Positions 30,214-58,844 of a stretch of 64,000 nt of DNA are shown one piece after another. The DNA lies in assembly GCF_001593605.1 (NCBI RefSeq), contig NZ_CP012836.1, positions 992,001 through 1,056,000 of the forward strand. The letters are read 5' to 3'. Every line of letters begins with the position of its first letter. Position 1 is the first letter of the stretch. The translations under genes were made by a program, and so were the position numbers. The stretch comes from Algoriphagus sanaruensis (GTDB lineage Bacteria; Bacteroidota; Bacteroidia; Cytophagales; Cyclobacteriaceae). The notes below the pieces were generated by a model. The model searched no databases, had not been told where the DNA came from, and was given only the letters and a program-made list of their open reading frames with translations.

Positions 30214-31695
30214 ATGCGTAAACCCCAACTTTCTTTTTCCCAGATCATCAACATGAATGTTGGTTTCTTTGGGATTCAGTACAGCTTTGGTCTTCAGCAA
30301 AGTGCTGTAAATCCGATCTATGACATGCTCGGTGCAGCACCCGATGAAATTCCGATTTTAAACTTGGCAGGCCCAATGACCGGGTTATTGATTCAACCTA
30401 TCATTGGAGCATTGAGTGATAGTACTTGGAGTCCGAAATATGGTCGACGAAAGCCCTATTTCTTCATTGGTGCTTTGCTTTGTAGCATCTGTTTATTTTT
30501 CTATCCATTCAGTAGTTCACTATGGATGGCTGCGGGATTACTTTGGGTCCTTGACGCAGCCAATAACACGGCGATGGAGCCCTATCGAGCGCTGATCGCA
30601 GATTCCCTTCCTGAGGAGCAATATGGCCAAGGGTTTTTGACTCAAAGTTTCTTCACAGGCTTAGGAATTACCTTGGCAAACATTTCCTTGTTTGTCTTTC
30701 AGATTTTCTTCAAAGGGACCATTGGATCACTTCCAATGTGGGTGTATGCCTCTTTCTTTTTGGGGACGATTTGTTCTATCACCTCCGTGATGTGGAGTAT
30801 TTCCAAAACACCTGAATATCCGCCTTCGGACGAAGAATTAGCAGCTCTTCGCCAACGAAATGAGGGCATGCCACCTCCCGCCGTTCAGTTCTTCCTTTCA
30901 ATTCTGACTACTTTGGTCGCCTATTTAGTTTTTCTGATCCTGTTGGTTCCTTCCATTTTTGATCGAAAGATTATCCGAAAAACCATTCACTGGGCGGAGA
31001 CAAATCCCACCACCAAGGTCTTGTTCGCTCAAAATCTCGAAATCATCGAAGCCATAATTCAAATGCCATCTGTCATGTGGAAGTTGGCCTTAGTTTACCT
31101 CTTCCAATGGTATGCGCTGTTTTGTTATTGGCAAAATGCCGCCAAATCCATTGCACTTTCTGTTTGGGGTGCGACCCCTTCCAGCGATCCTGAAAAATAC
31201 GAACAAGCTGTGGGTTGGACTGGACTAGTTAACGGCTGGTATAATATCGTAACGTTTCTTTCGGCGTTTTTTCTTGTCGGACTAGCCAAGAAATTCGGTC
31301 CAAAAACCGTCCATTTCTTGTGTTTGATTTTAGCAGGCGTGGGTTTGATTTTATTTCCAATGATTGAAAATAAATACCTGCTTTTTGCACCTATGACTGG
31401 ATTTGGAATCGCTTGGGCCAGTATGATGGGCGTTCCCTATCTATTGGTTGTGAATGAAATTCCAAAGGAGCGATACGGAGTTTACATGGGAATCATCAAT
31501 ATGATGATTGTGATTCCGATGATATTGCAGACCCTCTCTTTTGGCTTTATTTCCAAAAACTTCCTTGGAAATGATGCCGGGCAAGCGGTGACTTTCGCAG
31601 GAGTATTGTTACTGATTGCTGCTGCGGCCACTCTTTTGATCAAAGACAATAAGAAAATGGATGAAACAACAGTGATTGTTTCATCAGGCCATTGA
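30214..31695 (+). CDS. SLC45-type MFS sugar transporter
   Basis: A 493-residue membrane protein with about 12 helices, of the GPH/SLC45-like branch of the major facilitator family, which includes sucrose and maltose/H+ symporters. The family-typical blocks are QYSFGLQQSAVNPIYDMLGA in helix 1, GLLIQPIIGALSDSTWSPKYGRRKPYF between helices 2 and 3 (shortened here to GALSDSTWSPKYGRRKP), and DAANNTAMEPYRALIADSLP. A long central loop (about 205-280) separates the halves. The amylosucrase gene begins 25 bases after its stop, which points to sucrose or a related glucoside as substrate. Confidence 0.87.
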   Translation: MRKPQLSFSQIINMNVGFFGIQYSFGLQQSAVNPIYDMLGAAPDEIPILNLAGPMTGLLIQPIIGALSDSTWSPKYGRRKPYFFIGALLCSICLFFYPFSSSLWMAAGLLWVLDAANNTAMEPYRALIADSLPEEQYGQGFLTQSFFTGLGITLANISLFVFQIFFKGTIGSLPMWVYASFFLGTICSITSVMWSISKTPEYPPSDEELAALRQRNEGMPPPAVQFFLSILTTLVAYLVFLILLVPSIFDRKIIRKTIHWAETNPTTKVLFAQNLEIIEAIIQMPSVMWKLALVYLFQWYALFCYWQNAAKSIALSVWGATPSSDPEKYEQAVGWTGLVNGWYNIVTFLSAFFLVGLAKKFGPKTVHFLCLILAGVGLILFPMIENKYLLFAPMTGFGIAWASMMGVPYLLVVNEIPKERYGVYMGIINMMIVIPMILQTLSFGFISKNFLGNDAGQAVTFAGVLLLIAAAATLLIKDNKKMDETTVIVSSGH

Positions 31696-31720
31696 TAAAC
31701 CTATCTCTAGATTACCTTAC

Positions 31721-33679
31721 ATGACTACCGAATTATTCCTTCAGGAAAAAATCAACGAACTGTTGGAAATCCATCAGCTGGATGCTCTGAAAAAAGATCA
31801 AGCATTTGTAGACCGGCTTTGGAACCATTTACCTAAAATTCATAGGCTTTTTGGGGAGATTTATGCCTCTCACCATCAGGCCGAACCCCAGTTTATTGAG
31901 CTGATTTCAAGTTTGATTAAAGCCTATCAATCACGTGAAAGTTCTCTCAAGAAACGTGATGCTGAAAAAGCCAAGCAAGATGGTTGGTTTCTAAGCAATC
32001 AATTAGCTGGGATGAGTTTATACGTGGATCGCTTTGCCGGGAATTTGAAAAAAATGCCGGAAAAGCTGACGCACCTGGAGGAGTTAGGGGTAAATTTTCT
32101 CCACCTCATGCCCATTTTTCAAAGTCCAGAAGGTGAAAGTGATGGAGGATATGCGGTATCTGATTTCCGAACAGTCGACTCAAGGTTTGGATCTTTAGAA
32201 GACCTTATCGCGCTTCGCAAAAAGATGCACAGCAAAGGCATGAATCTAATGTTGGATATTGTGCTGAATCATACTTCTCACCATCACGAGTGGGCGCAGA
32301 AAGCCAAGCAAGGAGATCCATATTACCGAGACTTTTTCTATACCTATCCAGACCGGTGGATGCCAGATGAATTTGACCGAAGTATGCCTGAGATTTTCCC
32401 AGAGGCAGCTCCCGGCAATTTTACTTGGTCAGAAGAAATGGGTCGATGGGTAATGACGGTGTTCCACCGGTATCAGTGGGATTTGAATTACACCAATCCC
32501 GTTGTTTTCAAGGAAATGATGGATACGGTATTGTTTTACGGGAATTTGGGGGTGGATCTTCTCCGCATCGATGCACCAGCCTTTATCTGGAAACAGCCAG
32601 GTACTTCCTGCCAAAACTTGCCGGAAGCGCATACTTTGCTTCGATTGATCAAGCAATGTGTACTGGTAGCTACTCCTGGAATGGCGATTTTGGGTGAGGC
32701 TATCGTGGCTCCAAAGGAAATCATGAAGTATTTCGGTACGGGAGAATTCATAGCTCAGGAATGTGATTTTGCTTACAATGCCACTCAAATGGCCTTGCAA
32801 TGGGATATGTTGGCTTCGGGCGAGACCAAAGTAATGCTTGCCGCCCAACACGAAATTCTTCAGAAACCTTACGGTACTTCTTGGATTACCTATACCCGAT
32901 GCCATGATGATATTGGCTTGGGATACGATGACTACATGATTGCCCATGCAGGCAAAGAACCCTATCAGCATCGTAAATTTTTGAAAGAATACTATTCTTA
33001 TTCTGGAGATCAATGGATGAGTCCTGCTCGTGGTGCGCTTTTTTCCTCTAATCCGAAAACTGGCGATGCCAGAATTAGCGGTACGCTTGCATCCTTGTGT
33101 GGATTAGAAAAGGCCTTGATTGAAGGAAATGGTCCAGCCATTGATCAAAGCATTCAAAAAATCCTAATGATGCAGGCGCATTCCATTTTCTTGGGCGGAT
33201 TACCGATGCTATTTTATGGAGACGAAGTGGGCTATACCAATGATTATAGCTTCCAAAATGATCCTGGTAAATATTACGACAATCGATGGATGCACCGTCC
33301 TATCATTGATTGGGAAAAAGTAAACCGGAAAAAGGTAGATGGTACCGTCGAGAATCAACTCTTTGAAGGGACTAAAAAGCTACTTTCCATTCGAAAATCT
33401 CAGGATGTTTTTGCGGATTTGAGCAATATCACCTGGATGAGTCCGCACAATATTCATGTTGCAGGATTTGTTCGCCGAAAAGGGAATGACCGGGTGTACT
33501 GCCTGTTTAATTTCAGCGATCGTGCAGCCTATCTCACCTGGTATGCCTTTAAAGAGCAAGGAGAGGGAGCCACAGCGCTCTGGGATCTTTGGGGAGAAAA
33601 AATTCATACCATTGGAGCAGATAATGAATACTTGATCTTGCCTCCTTATGGATTCTGCATCATGACGCCGCAGGGTTAA
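31721..33679 (+). CDS. Amylosucrase-type GH13 glucosyltransferase
   Basis: Amylosucrase splits sucrose and transfers glucose to a growing alpha-1,4-glucan, or to water, releasing fructose. The 652 residues align in style and numbering with the Neisseria polysaccharea enzyme: nucleophile in GVDLLRIDAPAFIWKQ (Asp284), acid/base in AILGEAIVAP (Glu326), and transition-state stabiliser in RCHDDIGL (His395-Asp396), plus GTSCQNLPEAH after the nucleophile. The helical N-terminal domain (about 1-90) is present. There is no signal peptide, so it acts in the cytoplasm after uptake by the MFS carrier. I start at ATG 31721; an in-frame upstream ATG overlaps the transporter gene. Confidence 0.9.
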   Translation: MTTELFLQEKINELLEIHQLDALKKDQAFVDRLWNHLPKIHRLFGEIYASHHQAEPQFIELISSLIKAYQSRESSLKKRDAEKAKQDGWFLSNQLAGMSLYVDRFAGNLKKMPEKLTHLEELGVNFLHLMPIFQSPEGESDGGYAVSDFRTVDSRFGSLEDLIALRKKMHSKGMNLMLDIVLNHTSHHHEWAQKAKQGDPYYRDFFYTYPDRWMPDEFDRSMPEIFPEAAPGNFTWSEEMGRWVMTVFHRYQWDLNYTNPVVFKEMMDTVLFYGNLGVDLLRIDAPAFIWKQPGTSCQNLPEAHTLLRLIKQCVLVATPGMAILGEAIVAPKEIMKYFGTGEFIAQECDFAYNATQMALQWDMLASGETKVMLAAQHEILQKPYGTSWITYTRCHDDIGLGYDDYMIAHAGKEPYQHRKFLKEYYSYSGDQWMSPARGALFSSNPKTGDARISGTLASLCGLEKALIEGNGPAIDQSIQKILMMQAHSIFLGGLPMLFYGDEVGYTNDYSFQNDPGKYYDNRWMHRPIIDWEKVNRKKVDGTVENQLFEGTKKLLSIRKSQDVFADLSNITWMSPHNIHVAGFVRRKGNDRVYCLFNFSDRAAYLTWYAFKEQGEGATALWDLWGEKIHTIGADNEYLILPPYGFCIMTPQG

Positions 33680-33685
33680 ACATTA

Positions 33686-33725
33686 AAAAGCCTTCCTAGA
33701 TTTAATCCAGGAAGGCTTTTATCAT
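33686..33725. terminator. Bidirectional terminator
   Basis: The AAAAGCCTTCCT / AGGAAGGCTTTT stem with an 11-base loop lies between the convergent amylosucrase and LacI genes; T/A runs flank both sides. Confidence 0.9.
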
Positions 33726-34744
33726 TTTTGGGAGGATTCCCGGATAATGAGTTCCGTTTTAATTTCATGAAACTCATCCGTTACGGGGTCCTGATTTTTG
33801 AGAATTTCAATTAATAGTTCCGCAGCTTTACTTCCCATTGCTTTTCCATGCTGATCGACCGAACTTAAAGTCGGACTGGTATAATCTGAAAGCATCCAGT
33901 TGCTAAATCCCATAATTCCGACTTGCTGGGGAATTGCAATCGATTTGGATTGGAGGTGTTTCATCGCTCCAAGCGCTACCACATCTGTAATACAGAAGAT
34001 CGCATCTGGCGCATTTCCACTTTCCATAAGTTCCTTCGTGAATTCCATTCCTTCTTTTTCGGAGATTTCCCAGCAGTTTTTAACCCAATCTTCCCGGAAC
34101 TCCAAGCCATGGTCTTCGATCGCTTTTCGATAACCCTTGTAGCGTTCATGGGCATTTTTTACATCCATTCTGCCGCTCAAATGGGCAATCTTGCGGTATC
34201 CTTGTTTGATCAAATGGGTAACAGCATCATAGGCACTTTGAAAATCATCCACCACCAATTTTGGGCTAACCAGGTAGTCTGTGATCTTATCAAATTGGAC
34301 GACGGGCTTTCCTTCATCCAAAAAAGCTTGAAGGTGCTCTGCCTCTTTGGTTTCATTGGAAACTGAGATCAATAAGCCATCCACTCCCATTCCGAGCAGG
34401 TGTTGGCTGGCTCGAATTTCGTCTTTTAGCATGTCCTGCGATTGTGCTAAGATGATGCTGTAGCCGTGTTTTTTGGCGGTTTCCATGGCTCCATCAATCG
34501 TCGTGGAGAAAAAGTGATGAACGATCTGAGGTACAATCATTCCCAAAATGGAGGTACGGTTTTTTCGGAAATTCACCGCCATGGTATTGGGAATGTAATT
34601 GTGCTTTTCAGCATAATCCTTGACCATCTGAATCGTTTCTTCGGAGAGCGAAGGATAGCCATTCAGCGCCCTTGAAACGGTGGAGGGTGATAGGTTTAAT
34701 TCCTTGGCAATATCCTTAAGCGTAATTTTCCGTTTTTCAGCCAT
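33722..34744 (-). CDS. LacI family transcriptional regulator
   Basis: A 340-residue regulator. Residues 5-52 form the LacI helix-turn-helix and hinge (ITLKDIAKELNLSPSTVSRALNG), followed by a periplasmic-binding-protein-like sensor domain (about 60-340) with the typical VDGLLISVSNE, RKIAHLSG and PDAIFCITDVVALG blocks. It is convergent with the amylosucrase gene and divergent from the HUMPS/dehydrogenase operon, so it may control either or both; the shared upstream region with the second operon makes that the likelier target. The effector is probably a sugar or sugar phosphate. Confidence 0.9.
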   Translation of the reverse strand: MAEKRKITLKDIAKELNLSPSTVSRALNGYPSLSEETIQMVKDYAEKHNYIPNTMAVNFRKNRTSILGMIVPQIVHHFFSTTIDGAMETAKKHGYSIILAQSQDMLKDEIRASQHLLGMGVDGLLISVSNETKEAEHLQAFLDEGKPVVQFDKITDYLVSPKLVVDDFQSAYDAVTHLIKQGYRKIAHLSGRMDVKNAHERYKGYRKAIEDHGLEFREDWVKNCWEISEKEGMEFTKELMESGNAPDAIFCITDVVALGAMKHLQSKSIAIPQQVGIMGFSNWMLSDYTSPTLSSVDQHGKAMGSKAAELLIEILKNQDPVTDEFHEIKTELIIRESSQK

Positions 34745-34895: not shown

Positions 34896-35603
34896 ATGAC
34901 CCCGATTGTCCAGATCTCCTTGGATCTGACCAATATTGACGAAGCTCTTGAAACTGCTGCTCTGGCGCTTCGAGCTGGAGTGGATTGGCTGGAAGCTGGT
35001 ACCCCTTTAATTCTTGCAGAAGGTCTTCATGGCGTTCGAAAACTTCGTGAAGCTTTTCCCGGAACTCCCATTGTTGCTGATCTGAAAACCATGGATGGAG
35101 GTTATCTAGAGGCCGAAATGATGGCTAAAGCTGGAGCTACCCACGTGGTGGTCATGGCTCGAGCCCATGCCGAAACGATAAAATGTGTGGTCCAAGCAGG
35201 TAAAGATTTTGGCGTAAAAGTCATGGGAGATAACATGATTTGTCCCGATATGGTGGAGGGAGCTAAGTTTTTGGAAGATCTGGGTTGTGATTATGTGATT
35301 CATCACATTGGTTATGATGAGCGAAGGGGAATTGCTGCAGCAGGTCATCGAATGCCAAGTCCGCTCGATCAACTTCGTGAAGTTGTAGCTGCGGTGAATA
35401 TCCCTGTTCAGGCTGTCGGAGGTCTTTCTCTGGAGCAGGCAATCCAATGCCCACAATATGGAGCCCCACTGGTTGTATTAGGCGCGCCGCTGACTATTGA
35501 TGCCGATTCTTTCAAGACTGCAGATGGAGATCTCGAAATATCCCTCAGAATGATCTGTGAAGCCATCCATGCCCAAACCACCGTTTTCCCCTCTAACTCA
35601 TAA
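34896..35603 (+). CDS. HUMPS family protein (hexulose-6-phosphate synthase / 3-keto-L-gulonate-6-phosphate decarboxylase-like)
   Basis: A 235-residue TIM barrel of the orotidine-phosphate decarboxylase suprafamily. The family's metal and catalytic residues are all in place: Asp10 (ISLDLTN), Glu33 (DWLEAGTP), and Asp62, Lys64 and Asp67 (VADLKTMDGG). The HHIGYDERR motif resembles HPS (HTGYD) more than UlaD (HRSRD). HPS joins formaldehyde and ribulose 5-phosphate; UlaD decarboxylates 3-keto-L-gulonate 6-phosphate. No phosphohexuloisomerase gene is present beside it, as a formaldehyde pathway would need. It leads a tight four-gene operon with two dehydrogenases and an isomerase, so a sugar-acid decarboxylase or aldolase role is inferred. 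Confidence 0.8.
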   Translation: MTPIVQISLDLTNIDEALETAALALRAGVDWLEAGTPLILAEGLHGVRKLREAFPGTPIVADLKTMDGGYLEAEMMAKAGATHVVVMARAHAETIKCVVQAGKDFGVKVMGDNMICPDMVEGAKFLEDLGCDYVIHHIGYDERRGIAAAGHRMPSPLDQLREVVAAVNIPVQAVGGLSLEQAIQCPQYGAPLVVLGAPLTIDADSFKTADGDLEISLRMICEAIHAQTTVFPSNS

Positions 35604-35606
35604 GCC

Positions 35607-36650
35607 ATGTCCAGCACCAAAATACCCGCCGTAGTCAACTACTCCGAGCAAAAGCATTCAGTAGAAATTCGTGAAATCCCTGTCCCTGAAATCGGCGAGG
35701 AAGATATCCTTCTTGAGGTCGAAAATGTCGGTGTTTGCGGCAGTGACTTGCATCAGTGGACTTCTGACCACAGTTGGCCGGTAAATTATCCGGTGGTCAT
35801 GGGGCACGAGTTTGGAGGGAAAATAGCCGCTTTGGGCTCCCGTGTATCAGGCTGGAAAGTCGGAGATCGAGTGGTCTCTGAAACTGCTGCCGTAATCGAC
35901 TCCCTTAATCCTATGAGTAAAGTCGGGCTCTACAATTTAGACCCAACTCGAAAAGGATTTGGCTATGGAGTCAATGGAGCCATGACCCGGTTTGTGCGGG
36001 TGCCAGCAAGATGCTTACACAACGTCCCCGAGAATTTATCCTTTGAAGAAGCCTGCCTGACCGAACCCTGTTGTGTCGCTTTCAATGCCTTGGTGGGTAA
36101 TTCCCACATCAAACCTGGAGATCGGGTCATTGTGATCGGGCCTGGAACAATCGGGATTCTATGTGCTGCCGTAGCCCGACTCTGCGGAGCTGAAGTGGCA
36201 GTCTTGGGATTAGAGGCAGATCGAGGTAGATTAGAAATTGCTAAAAATGCCTACGGCTGTGATCCATTAATTGGGGAAGATGTGGCAGAAGCTTGGGCGA
36301 GGAAAAGAGATGGACTAGGAGCTGATCTGATCGTGGACGCTGCAGGACATAGCATTACCTTAAGGACTGCGATGAAACTTGTCCGCCCCAATGGGCAAAT
36401 TACCAAAGTTGGATGGGGACCACAGCCTCTAAATTTTTCCATTGATCCTATTGTTCAGAAAAATGTGCGCCTTCAGGGGAGCTTTAGTCACAACTGGCCA
36501 ATCTGGGAGCGAGTGATTGCATTACTGGCCAGTGGGGCTTTAAACGTGAAGCCGATTATTGGTGGGGTTTGGTCGATTACTGATTGGCACGAGGCATTTG
36601 AAAAAATGCATACTGGACAAATTGTAAAAGCAGTATTAAAGCCAGTTTAA
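35607..36650 (+). CDS. Zinc-binding medium-chain alcohol dehydrogenase
   Basis: A 347-residue MDR-family dehydrogenase of the sorbitol/threonine dehydrogenase type. The catalytic zinc ligands are present (Cys44 in GVCGSDLHQW, His67-Glu68 in MGHEFGG, Glu153 in LTEPCC), as is the cofactor loop VIGPGTIGILC (about 177-187). The structural zinc lobe with four cysteines, normally around residues 90-115, is missing and replaced by a Cys-free stretch (VIDSLNPMSKVGLYNLDPTR). It probably oxidises a secondary hydroxyl of a sugar, polyol or sugar acid. It starts three bases after the HUMPS gene. Confidence 0.87.
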   Translation: MSSTKIPAVVNYSEQKHSVEIREIPVPEIGEEDILLEVENVGVCGSDLHQWTSDHSWPVNYPVVMGHEFGGKIAALGSRVSGWKVGDRVVSETAAVIDSLNPMSKVGLYNLDPTRKGFGYGVNGAMTRFVRVPARCLHNVPENLSFEEACLTEPCCVAFNALVGNSHIKPGDRVIVIGPGTIGILCAAVARLCGAEVAVLGLEADRGRLEIAKNAYGCDPLIGEDVAEAWARKRDGLGADLIVDAAGHSITLRTAMKLVRPNGQITKVGWGPQPLNFSIDPIVQKNVRLQGSFSHNWPIWERVIALLASGALNVKPIIGGVWSITDWHEAFEKMHTGQIVKAVLKPV

Positions 36651-36651
36651 C

Positions 36652-37443
36652 ATGCGACTCAAAGACAAAGTCATTATCGTCACTGGAAGTACTACAGGTA
36701 TCGGAAAAGCCATTGCCAAACGATGTGTGGCTGAAGGTGCCAAGGTGGTTTTACATGGTTTGGAAGGCTTTCTGGGAGAAGAAGTTTTAGATGAAATTGG
36801 GGCTGAAAATGCCGTTTTTCACCAAGAAGATATTTCTGTGGAAGCTTGCCCGGAGCGCTTGGTCAAATTGGCAGTAGACCACTTTGGAAAGTTGGATGCG
36901 GTGGTCAACAATGCTGCTTGGGTGATCCAATCCAATATTGAAAATACTGACCGGGCATTTCTCCAAAAAGTCCTGGACATCAATGCTGTTTCTCCTTTTT
37001 TGCTAATTCAAGCTGCCCTTCCCGAACTCGCTAAAAATCAAGGCTGCGTACTCAATATCGGTTCGGTCAATGCATGGAGTGGCGAACCTAATTTGCTTGC
37101 CTATTCGATTTCTAAGGGGGCATTGATGACCTTGACCCGAAATCTGGGCGATTCCTTGATGCGAGATCAGGGCATTCGTGTCAACCAAATCAATCCAGGC
37201 TGGGTCTTGACTGAGCGGGAAAAAGAACGCAAAAGGGATCATGGTCTTTCCGAAACTTGGTTTGAAGATCTACCCAAAATGTATGCTCCTGCAGGTCGGA
37301 TTCTCTGGCCGGAGGAAATTGCTGCTGCTTGTGTGTATTGGCTTTCAGATGAGGCAGGTCCAATTTCAGGTCAAGTAGTCGATCTCGAACAATATCCTAT
37401 GATCGGGCGAAATGCCCCAAAAGACACTTCAACAATCCACTGA
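36652..37443 (+). CDS. SDR family oxidoreductase
   Basis: A 263-residue short-chain dehydrogenase with the NAD(P) motif VTGSTTGIGKA (10-20), NNAAW (86-90), and the catalytic set Asn111, Ser138, Tyr151 and Lys155 (YSISK). The residue after the second strand is histidine rather than aspartate (VVLHGLEG), so cofactor preference is unclear. With the preceding zinc dehydrogenase it could oxidise and re-reduce a sugar at different carbons. It starts one base after the previous stop. Confidence 0.87.
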   Translation: MRLKDKVIIVTGSTTGIGKAIAKRCVAEGAKVVLHGLEGFLGEEVLDEIGAENAVFHQEDISVEACPERLVKLAVDHFGKLDAVVNNAAWVIQSNIENTDRAFLQKVLDINAVSPFLLIQAALPELAKNQGCVLNIGSVNAWSGEPNLLAYSISKGALMTLTRNLGDSLMRDQGIRVNQINPGWVLTEREKERKRDHGLSETWFEDLPKMYAPAGRILWPEEIAAACVYWLSDEAGPISGQVVDLEQYPMIGRNAPKDTSTIH

Positions 37444-37446
37444 TTT

Positions 37447-38334
37447 ATGCCAAAACTCGCCGCCTTTCCGAAGGCCTTTATGCAGCAGCTCTGCAAAGAT
37501 GGAAGTATGAAAATTGCCGATTGGGTTAAATTGGCAGCCCCGCTTCAGATCGATGGACTGGAGTGGTACGCTGGATTTTTGGAGATGGCTGATGAAAAAA
37601 ACTGGTCCAAATTCCGACGAATGGTTGAAAACGAAGGTATGGTTATTCCGATGATGTGCTGTTCGCCTGATTTTACCCATCGGGATAAATCCTTCCGTGA
37701 AAATGAAATCCAAAAGCAAAAACGCTGGATTGAGATGACGGATGCCCTAGGTGGGAAATATTGCCGCGTTCTTTCCGGGCAATATCGTCCCGAACTCTCC
37801 GTGGAGGAAGGAATCAAACTCGCTAAAGACTGCATCGAGGCCTGTCTCCCCTACGCTCAAAGTCTGGGAATTACGCTGATTATCGAAAATCATTACAAAG
37901 ATGACTTTTGGGAATATCCGGAATTTGCGCAGAAGCGAGACATTTTCACCAAACTGGTCAAGTCGATTCAGCATCCCAACTTTGGAGTGAATTACGATCC
38001 GAGCAATACGTTTTTGGCGGGAGAAGATCCCCTGGATTTGTTGTATGATGTCTCTGAGCGAGTCCTGACCATGCATGCGAGTGACCGATTTTTAAAATAC
38101 GGCACAATTGAAGATTTGCGAAAAGTAGAAGGTGGTGCCGTAGGGTATGCGAAAATGCTCAGCCATGGAGAAATCGGCAAAGGCATGAATGATTACGATG
38201 CGATCTTCACTGAGCTCAAGCGAGTCGGCTTTGATAACTGGATCAGCATCGAAGACGGGGTGGATGGCATGGATCAGTTGGAGCGGAGTGTGGCGTTTTT
38301 GAAGAAGAAGATAGCGCAGTATTGGAACAGATAG
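37447..38334 (+). CDS. Sugar phosphate isomerase/epimerase (xylose-isomerase-like TIM barrel)
   Basis: A 295-residue TIM barrel of the AP-endonuclease-2/xylose isomerase family. The usual metal ligands are present: Glu147 (LIIENH), Asp184 (VNYDPSN), His210 (TMHASD) and Glu269 (SIEDG), so it should be an active metal-dependent isomerase, epimerase or dehydratase. UlaE-type 3-epimerases, inositol-catabolic IolE/IolI and D-tagatose epimerases share the fold; I cannot choose among them. It is the fourth gene of the operon, three bases after the SDR. Confidence 0.85.
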   Translation: MPKLAAFPKAFMQQLCKDGSMKIADWVKLAAPLQIDGLEWYAGFLEMADEKNWSKFRRMVENEGMVIPMMCCSPDFTHRDKSFRENEIQKQKRWIEMTDALGGKYCRVLSGQYRPELSVEEGIKLAKDCIEACLPYAQSLGITLIIENHYKDDFWEYPEFAQKRDIFTKLVKSIQHPNFGVNYDPSNTFLAGEDPLDLLYDVSERVLTMHASDRFLKYGTIEDLRKVEGGAVGYAKMLSHGEIGKGMNDYDAIFTELKRVGFDNWISIEDGVDGMDQLERSVAFLKKKIAQYWNR

Positions 38335-38489
38335 TCCACGGTCGACACAAGACGGTCCACTGCAGAAAGAAAGACAAATGGTCAACTGTCCACAGTCGAC
38401 AGTCGACCGCAAAAAATACCAATTGGATTTGAACTTAAACCATTTAAACAAAGCGGCTGTGGTCTGTGGACCATGGACCGTTGACAATT
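38335..38489 (+). repeat. Cluster of GTCGAC/GTCCAC-type short repeats
   Basis: This intergenic stretch is packed with short related words (GTCCACGGTCGAC, GACGGTCCAC, GGTCAACTGTCCACAGTCGAC, GTGGACCATGGACC). The segment 38386-38402 matches the reverse complement of 58816-58832 at 16 of 17 bases. It begins directly after the isomerase stop codon. I see no gene in it. Confidence 0.55.
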
Positions 38490-38490
38490 A

Positions 38491-38525
38491 AACTTTCGAA
38501 CTTTGCAACCTTACCACTTTACAAC
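38491..38525 (-). repeat. Dispersed 35-base intergenic repeat, copy 2
   Basis: The reverse complement of this stretch matches 22255-22289 at 29 of 35 positions. It contains the TTG (38503) that is the only plausible start codon of the SMP-30 gene. Confidence 0.55.
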
Positions 38526-39381
38526 CATCCCTTCTCAGTGTTTTTTGGGCGAAGGCCCGCTTTGGATCGCCGAGCTCGGCTGTTTCTTTTGGGTAGATAT
38601 CGAAAAGGGCAACCTGCATCGCTATCATTTGAATTCAGAAACCCTAGAAGTCCGTCACTTTCCACATCGATTGGCGGTTGTGCTAGAGGGACAAAATGCT
38701 AAATTGATTCTGGGTTTGGATCGAAAGCTGGTTCGTTACGATTGGGAAACTCAAGACATCGAAGAGCTCTGTGAGGTGGAAGAAGATTTGGGCTTGAATC
38801 GTTTCAATGACGGTAAGGTTGATCCTCAAGGCAGAATCTGGATCGGGACGCTCAGTACACTTTTCACCGAAGGTGCGGGTTCCTTGTATCGAATTGGAGC
38901 GGATCTGAAACCTCTAACTAAATTGAACAACCTGACCATTTCCAATGGAATGGCTTGGACGGTTGATCAAAGGACGTTTTACTTTATCGATACACCTACC
39001 AAGAAGATTCAGGAATTTGCCTTTGATCCAGAAACGGGAGCCATTGAATTTCGACGAATTGCCGTTGAGATTTCGGAGGGATTGGGCTTTCCAGACGGGA
39101 TGTGCTTGGATCGGGAAGGGATGCTTTGGGTGGCGCATTATGCGGGTTCGGGCGTGTACCGCTGGGATCCGAATACGGGCCAACTTTTGGACAAAATCGA
39201 ATTACAGGTTCCCCACGTGACTTCTTGTTGTTTTGGAGGAGAAAATCTGGATATGATGTTGATTACTACAGCTCAAGAAAATCTGACATCGGATGATCTT
39301 AAAAAATATCCTCAGAGTGGGGATGTATTTTTGGTGAACGTGGAGGTAGGAGGATTTGAGTCGAATCCGGCGATGATTTAA
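38503..39381 (+). CDS. SMP-30/gluconolactonase family protein
   Basis: A 292-residue six-bladed propeller of the regucalcin/lactonase family that opens sugar lactones to acids. The metal ligands match regucalcin almost position for position: Glu17 (LGEGPLW), Asn102 (NRFNDG), Asn148 (SNGMAW) and Asp198 (PDGMC). The start is TTG at 38503, inside a dispersed repeat; the frame is open only from 38485, so no ATG or GTG is possible, and the next TTG lies inside the LGEG motif. It follows the isomerase gene by 168 bases of repeats, so it may or may not share the operon. Confidence 0.85.
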   Translation: MQPYHFTTIPSQCFLGEGPLWIAELGCFFWVDIEKGNLHRYHLNSETLEVRHFPHRLAVVLEGQNAKLILGLDRKLVRYDWETQDIEELCEVEEDLGLNRFNDGKVDPQGRIWIGTLSTLFTEGAGSLYRIGADLKPLTKLNNLTISNGMAWTVDQRTFYFIDTPTKKIQEFAFDPETGAIEFRRIAVEISEGLGFPDGMCLDREGMLWVAHYAGSGVYRWDPNTGQLLDKIELQVPHVTSCCFGGENLDMMLITTAQENLTSDDLKKYPQSGDVFLVNVEVGGFESNPAMI

Positions 39382-58756: not shown

Positions 58757-58844
58757 GGTCGACGGACTACAGTCCGCCGCCATAGAAAATAAGGTTTGAA
58801 GTTTGGGTTTTCCTGCTGTCGACTGTTGACAGTGGACTATTGAC
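58757..58844 (+). repeat. GTCGAC-type repeat cluster between nbaC and kynU
   Basis: The words GGGTCGACGGACTACAGTCCGCCGCC (quoted in parts: GTCGACGGACTACAGTCC) and CTGTCGACTGTTGACAG (58816-58832) fill this 105-base gap. The second matches 38386-38402 (reverse complement) at 16 of 17 bases. The first contains the near-palindrome GGACTACAGTCC and could form a small hairpin. Confidence 0.55.

Follow-up and report, generated by a model that had tools for sequence, protein, structure and literature searches.

Which reaction does a C-C lyase of the PF00215 family (HUMPS) catalyse when it is encoded with two dehydrogenases and an isomerase-like protein? HUMPS enzymes, which act on phosphorylated sugars, serve as a model of how a single active site can be turned either to decarboxylation or to aldol reactions. 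The question is raised by a locus of Algoriphagus sanaruensis (Bacteroidota), within a window of 64,000 nucleotides (the whole stretch analysed; NZ_CP012836.1, positions 992,001 to 1,056,000) from a genome that is a single contig of about 3.88 Mb. A HUMPS gene is followed there by genes for a zinc dehydrogenase (ZnDH), a short-chain dehydrogenase/reductase (SDR) and a xylose-isomerase-like TIM barrel (TIM), with gaps of 3, 1 and 3 bases, and after a further 168 bases by a gene for an SMP-30/gluconolactonase-like protein (SMP-30); a LacI-family regulator gene diverges from them. This layout, first given in a preliminary description, was confirmed by the coordinates and by Pfam, with which the protein families were assigned. 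We suggest, tentatively and without calling it probable, that HUMPS, ZnDH, SDR and TIM make up a module of four enzymes that degrades a sugar or sugar acid, the substrate probably being unphosphorylated, and in which HUMPS would remove C1 of a 3-keto compound.

The four genes form a single conserved unit

A scan of species genomes yielded at least 590 stretches with the searched pattern, at least 576 of which encode relatives; from these the top 80 loci were retained. All 80 are nearest relatives by construction, with HUMPS identities of 85% or more. Thirteen loci with less than 4.2 kb downstream were dropped (4 Bacteroidota and 9 Verrucomicrobiota, with phyla taken from record titles), leaving 40 and 27, respectively. 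Genes were counted by tblastn; a set was scored as together when its members shared a strand, spanned no more than 6 kb and were each at least 50% identical. By this measure all 40 Bacteroidota loci keep HUMPS, ZnDH, SDR and TIM together, far more often than chance would allow, and this neighbourhood comparison bears out the conserved catabolic module that had been predicted. SMP-30 was found in 28 of these loci, LacI in 10 (counted with upstream flanks of unchecked length), an MFS transporter in 12 and a GH13 enzyme in 11. The lactonase-like protein and the regulator, previously described as part of the set, do adjoin it, but they are not core members. Among the 27 Verrucomicrobiota loci, ZnDH was present in 16, TIM in 4, SDR in 3 and all four genes in 2, and SMP-30 in none. 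The module genes are often scattered across the genome in this phylum: TIM was found elsewhere in all eight genomes with scattered genes that were queried (four being Verrucomicrobiota), SDR elsewhere in 11 of 12 queried Verrucomicrobiota genomes whose HUMPS locus is without it, and six of the 11 retrieved loci with SDR also had TIM nearby.

Co-occurrence is also seen at the level of genomes. HUMPS matches at E 1e-10 were found in 14 of 395 Bacteroidota genomes, 12 belonging to the module clade and two being HPS-like (hexulose-6-phosphate synthase; 34–36% identity). TIM was found at E 1e-40 in 12 of the 395, the identical 12, which represent eight families (Fisher p 4e-23, uncorrected for kinship; in one of the 12 HUMPS is internally deleted). 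HUMPS is present at E 1e-30 in 12 of 288 Verrucomicrobiota genomes (75–92% identical) and, at 61–69% identity, in six more distant Bacteroidota genomes. Among these six, the four genes lie together in genomes G179 (with one additional gene between them), G313, G352 and G376, and G254 has three, SDR not being among them. Genome G215 carries a four-gene set (L204, 97–6076) in which HUMPS is truncated by the contig end, and a lone HUMPS gene on another contig.

In another Algoriphagus genome, G194 (L112, 9495–9917), an in-frame deletion has removed HUMPS residues 50–142, catalytic ones among them. ZnDH and TIM are intact, and the SDR ortholog is lost, the best SDR relatives being at most 37% identical. 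A transposase-like gene is located near the deletion. The joint lack of HUMPS and SDR in G194 and on haloarchaeal plasmids (below) had raised the idea of a module made of two halves; this was rejected as inconsistent in its pairing, because in Verrucomicrobiota HUMPS sits with ZnDH, and SDR near TIM, at the frequencies given above.

Table 1 Features of the locus and its surroundings (window positions)
Feature	Position	Strand	Remarks
C-C lyase of the HUMPS family; separate clade, nearer to HPS by sequence	34896..35603	+	core
ZnDH, sorbitol/threonine-dehydrogenase-like	35607..36650	+	core; PF08240 and PF00107
SDR	36652..37443	+	core; PF13561; YSISK motif
Xylose-isomerase-like TIM barrel, isomerase or epimerase	37447..38334	+	core
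SMP-30/gluconolactonase-like protein	38503..39381	+	accessory; PF08450; first codon TTG as listed
LacI-family regulator, divergent	33722..34744	-	accessory; PF00356 and Peripla_BP
Inverted repeat separating the GH13 gene from LacI; probably a terminator common to both	33680..33721	.	by eye
MFS transporter and GH13 enzyme	30214..33679	+	neighbours in some Algoriphagus-type loci only
Two adjacent proteins, 366 and 358 aa	27856-30005	-	

No palindrome common to eight intergenic regions was found that could serve as a LacI operator. A GTCGAC-type repeat lies between TIM and SMP-30 (38385–38409), with a second copy bearing 3 mismatches at 58816–58833, and a similar one is found in L112 between ZnDH and TIM; it looks like a dispersed intergenic repeat.

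Placement of the HUMPS enzyme

The genome contains two PF00215 genes, the HUMPS gene and a second that is presumably PyrF. The HUMPS protein scores 77.1 bits against PF00215 (cut-off 27) and has D10, E33, T36, D62, K64, D67, H137 and D141, comprising the D-E-DxK metal/lysine motif. It reaches 141.1 bits with the NCBIfam HPS model HxlA, below the cut-off of 200, and also stays below the cut-offs of the UlaD and subfamily models (64.1 of 294 and 82.9 of 250 bits). Its best model matches are HPS, and so are the nearest folds to its predicted structure among re-examined Foldseek matches. At sites 112, 139 and 169 it has D, Y and V, where UlaD and SgbH, enzymes of the 3-keto-L-gulonate-6-phosphate decarboxylase (KGPDC) type, have E, R and T. 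E112 and R139 are functional sites of KGPDC; in the window protein the pair is absent and the residues at both positions are of the HPS type. Solved mutants at these two sites bear ribulose 5-phosphate, according to their PDB titles. One loop reads G-A-P, where the HPS rows have GG(G/A), GAA or GSA, and the protein has a longer loop than those rows.

In an earlier tree, with few reference rows and long branches, the HUMPS clade stood apart from both HPS and KGPDC. Its designation as a third branch beside the two was withdrawn once its nearest relative of solved structure, the bifunctional HPS/PHI enzyme 9lj9 (PHI, 6-phospho-3-hexuloisomerase), was included. In that tree 14 rows, all HPS among them, are separated from two KGPDC (100/100), and the HUMPS clade (own support 100/100) is sister to 9lj9 (96/96; 44% identical), on a long branch and again among few reference rows. 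Judged by sequence, the clade is distinct and appears nearer to HPS than to KGPDC. Of the placements foreseen in the preliminary description (with HPS, with KGPDC or in a third cluster), the separate cluster stands, but as a clade on the HPS side. Because of this tree, we lowered our estimate of a decarboxylation route, of the explanation that we prefer and of a third functional type, and raised that of a true HPS.

A true HPS, fixing or releasing formaldehyde with the TIM barrel substituting for PHI, is a serious rival, even if we consider it unlikely. The residues at 112 and 139, the sister position to 9lj9, the nearest folds and best model matches, and the isomerase-type fold of TIM all speak for it. 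Set against these are the score short of the HxlA cut-off, the long branch to 9lj9, the clade's own G-A-P loop and its longer loop, the polyol- or sugar-type dehydrogenases, and the occurrence of TIM on haloarchaeal plasmids where HUMPS is lacking. The absence of a PHI partner, claimed from the beginning, was upheld, the best match in the window's genome scoring 38.6 bits against a cut-off of 160. The preliminary description had named two findings that together would tell against it, grouping with HPS and a PHI gene elsewhere in the genome; the tree and the models point to the first, and for the second no gene of the genome passed the PHI cut-off. In a different Bacteroidota genome, PHI-like, HPS and 6-phosphogluconate-dehydrogenase-like genes lie in a row (L100, 883–3560; by eye). 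When plasmids were searched with HUMPS as the query, the 14 records obtained were all from Bacillaceae and annotated hxlA.

Partner enzymes and the proposed route

Motifs with residues of assigned catalytic roles were located in HUMPS, ZnDH, SDR, TIM and SMP-30, in agreement with the earlier statement that they are intact. ZnDH has C44 and GHE at 66; its best PDB matches are sorbitol dehydrogenase and L-threonine 3-dehydrogenase, in a near tie, and it falls under the NCBIfam cut-offs. SDR carries TGSTTGIG and YSISK and scores 209.8 bits against PRK06198 (cut-off 240). TIM has the ketose 3-epimerase fold with E147, D184, H210 and E269 as the four metal ligands, and its invariant basic residues (K9, R107, R114, H149, K151 and R214) fit an anionic substrate. 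SMP-30 exceeds the cut-off of the Pfam SGL model PF08450 (250.5 bits), matches regucalcin best in the PDB and has the motifs GEGP, NRFNDG and PDGM.

In the route that we tentatively prefer, the dehydrogenases would introduce a carbonyl at C3 or take it away, with C1 oxidised too where the lactonase is present, and the metal-dependent TIM barrel would interconvert epimers or keto forms. HUMPS may then take C1 off the 3-keto compound through a metal-held 1,2-enediolate, leaving a ketose shorter by one carbon. A metal-held 1,2-enediolate is the mechanism of HPS and KGPDC. The C1 product would be formaldehyde from an alcohol, formate from a hydrated aldehyde and CO2 from a carboxylate.

The CO2 case corresponds to the ula-like route of the preliminary description: SDR forms a lactone, SMP-30 opens it, ZnDH oxidises C3, HUMPS turns the resulting 3-keto aldonate into a pentulose by decarboxylation and TIM epimerises this for a xylulokinase. 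The top-scoring models of ZnDH are threonine 3-dehydrogenases, whose product is a 3-keto acid; SMP-30 accompanies most Bacteroidota loci, the basic residues of TIM are compatible, and a xylulokinase-like gene lies next to a xylose-isomerase-like gene in the window's genome (by eye). However, HUMPS appears to group with HPS and does not have E112 and R139 as UlaD and SgbH do, SMP-30 is not core, and no 3-keto aldonate pathway was found among the papers listed in a search for it. The ula-like route is therefore weakened; it is possible, if rather improbable. Its lactone step in particular is weakened, since it rests on SMP-30, which is absent at the threshold used from 12 of the 40 Bacteroidota and all 27 Verrucomicrobiota loci.

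The operon contains no kinase, as had been described. XylB- and RhaB-like kinases are encoded in the window's genome (by eye), and a PFK-family gene adjoins HUMPS in three genomes, all of one genus. The pentulose-kinase FGGY family TIGR01315, the only kinase family tested, was over its cut-off in one of the 12 genomes with the module and in three of 14 without it. A member is located near the operon in L104, but all carriers belong to one genus and the family does not travel with the module, so that a pentulose kinase of this family was rejected as partner. An HpcH/HpaI aldolase is held by 8 loci and adjoins HUMPS in some of them; its equation with the haloarchaeal aldolase described next was discarded, the two belonging to different families (one member of each scanned).

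Four haloarchaeal plasmids (L174–L177) encode ZnDH (53–56% identical) and TIM (50–53%) beside a DeoC/LacD aldolase (by Pfam in L174; relatives in the other three 73–77% identical) and a ketohexokinase-family protein (PF25270 in L174; relatives 53–55%). HUMPS was not found on these plasmids at E 1e-20 (a search of the plasmids, with the chromosomes unsearched), and no SDR encoded there exceeds 38% identity. The kinase and aldolase next to ZnDH and TIM fit a phosphorylation after these two steps, which suggests that it comes later in haloarchaea. Neighbours on these megaplasmids are annotated as sulfatases and Gfo/Idh/MocA proteins, and as FAD-dependent oxidoreductases in 3 of the 4 stretches. 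The same loci accommodate a polyol route, in which a ketose made from a polyol by ZnDH is epimerised by TIM and then cleaved, by HUMPS in bacteria or through the kinase and aldolase in haloarchaea. Sorbitol dehydrogenase as the top PDB match of ZnDH and the ketose 3-epimerase folds agree with such a route, but it offers no clear step for SDR and SMP-30, and we regard it as quite improbable.

Several points weigh against C1 removal from an unphosphorylated substrate. By sequence HUMPS appears to group with HPS, enzymes with phosphorylated substrates, and the glycines of its phosphate-binding loops are retained. The anionic substrate of TIM could also be a phosphate ester, the haloarchaeal ZnDH and TIM could merely produce a ketohexose, and co-occurrence was tested for one kinase family only.

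The module could also end glycoside 3-oxidation by converting 3-keto hexoses, released by 3-keto-glycoside hydrolases, into a ketose. The fate of the 3-keto sugar in that process is called unknown in PMC9007349. Oxidoreductases linked with sugar 3-oxidation surround the operon in other lineages. In L103 and L104, which represent two families, the flanking genes encode GMC dehydrogenases with 64% mutual identity and with PF13618 partners; L104, the locus subjected to a domain scan, also has a DUF1080 gene. PF12831 proteins are encoded in some Verrucomicrobiota loci and one haloarchaeal locus. The window's genome contains 12 PF06439 stretches, and PF13618 is present in 12 of 12 module genomes against 118 of 383 other Bacteroidota. 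This enrichment is confounded by kinship, because all six sampled members of the window's own family that lack the module have PF13618 as well, and GMC adjacency is limited to 2 of 8 families. None of these hints sets the module apart from the phylogenetic background, and we judge the explanation unlikely.

Relation to known pathways

No account of the module was found among the open-access papers that searches listed, in keeping with the earlier description of the pathway as uncharacterised. What emerges is a well conserved pathway whose HUMPS varies a known kind of enzyme: its clade appears to derive from HPS, reaches 93% identity between the proteins of the window and of Verrucomicrobiota, and is tied to three fixed partners in place of PHI. 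Whether it performs a third HUMPS reaction is a directly testable question. In a broader proposal, which we consider doubtful, the clade would represent a third functional type of HUMPS, a lyase that removes C1 from 3-keto sugars or sugar acids without a phosphate group. Together with an isomerase of its own and two dehydrogenases, it would form an unphosphorylated counterpart of the hexose-to-pentose route, and this might be the end that glycoside 3-oxidation has been missing. The module might then answer where 3-keto hexoses go, a point left open in PMC9007349.

The module differs from HPS (HxlA, and foremost 9lj9) in its separate HUMPS clade, the G-A-P loop, the longer loop and C-terminus and the lack of a PHI over the cut-off. 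From KGPDC (UlaD and SgbH) it is set apart by D, Y and V in place of E112, R139 and T169, with 26% identity to UlaD, and from the KGPDC route by an operon without a phosphorylating step. TIM is at most about 20% identical to D-tagatose and ketose 3-epimerases and to the isomerase Art22; its N187 presumably occupies the position of the tagatose 3-epimerase histidine. In the Thermotoga inositol pathway (IolM and IolO), which is not known to include a HUMPS, the corresponding models are matched below cut-off by ZnDH (177 of 450 bits) and TIM (29.6 of 300 bits). Like the module, the threonate/2-oxo-tetronate pathway (ygbJKLM) combines, by annotation, a dehydrogenase, a TIM-barrel isomerase and a C1-removing enzyme. 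Unlike the module, it has a kinase, and the profile match of TIM to YgbM is weak (31%), compared with UlaE (94%), SgbU (90%) and Hyi (87%).

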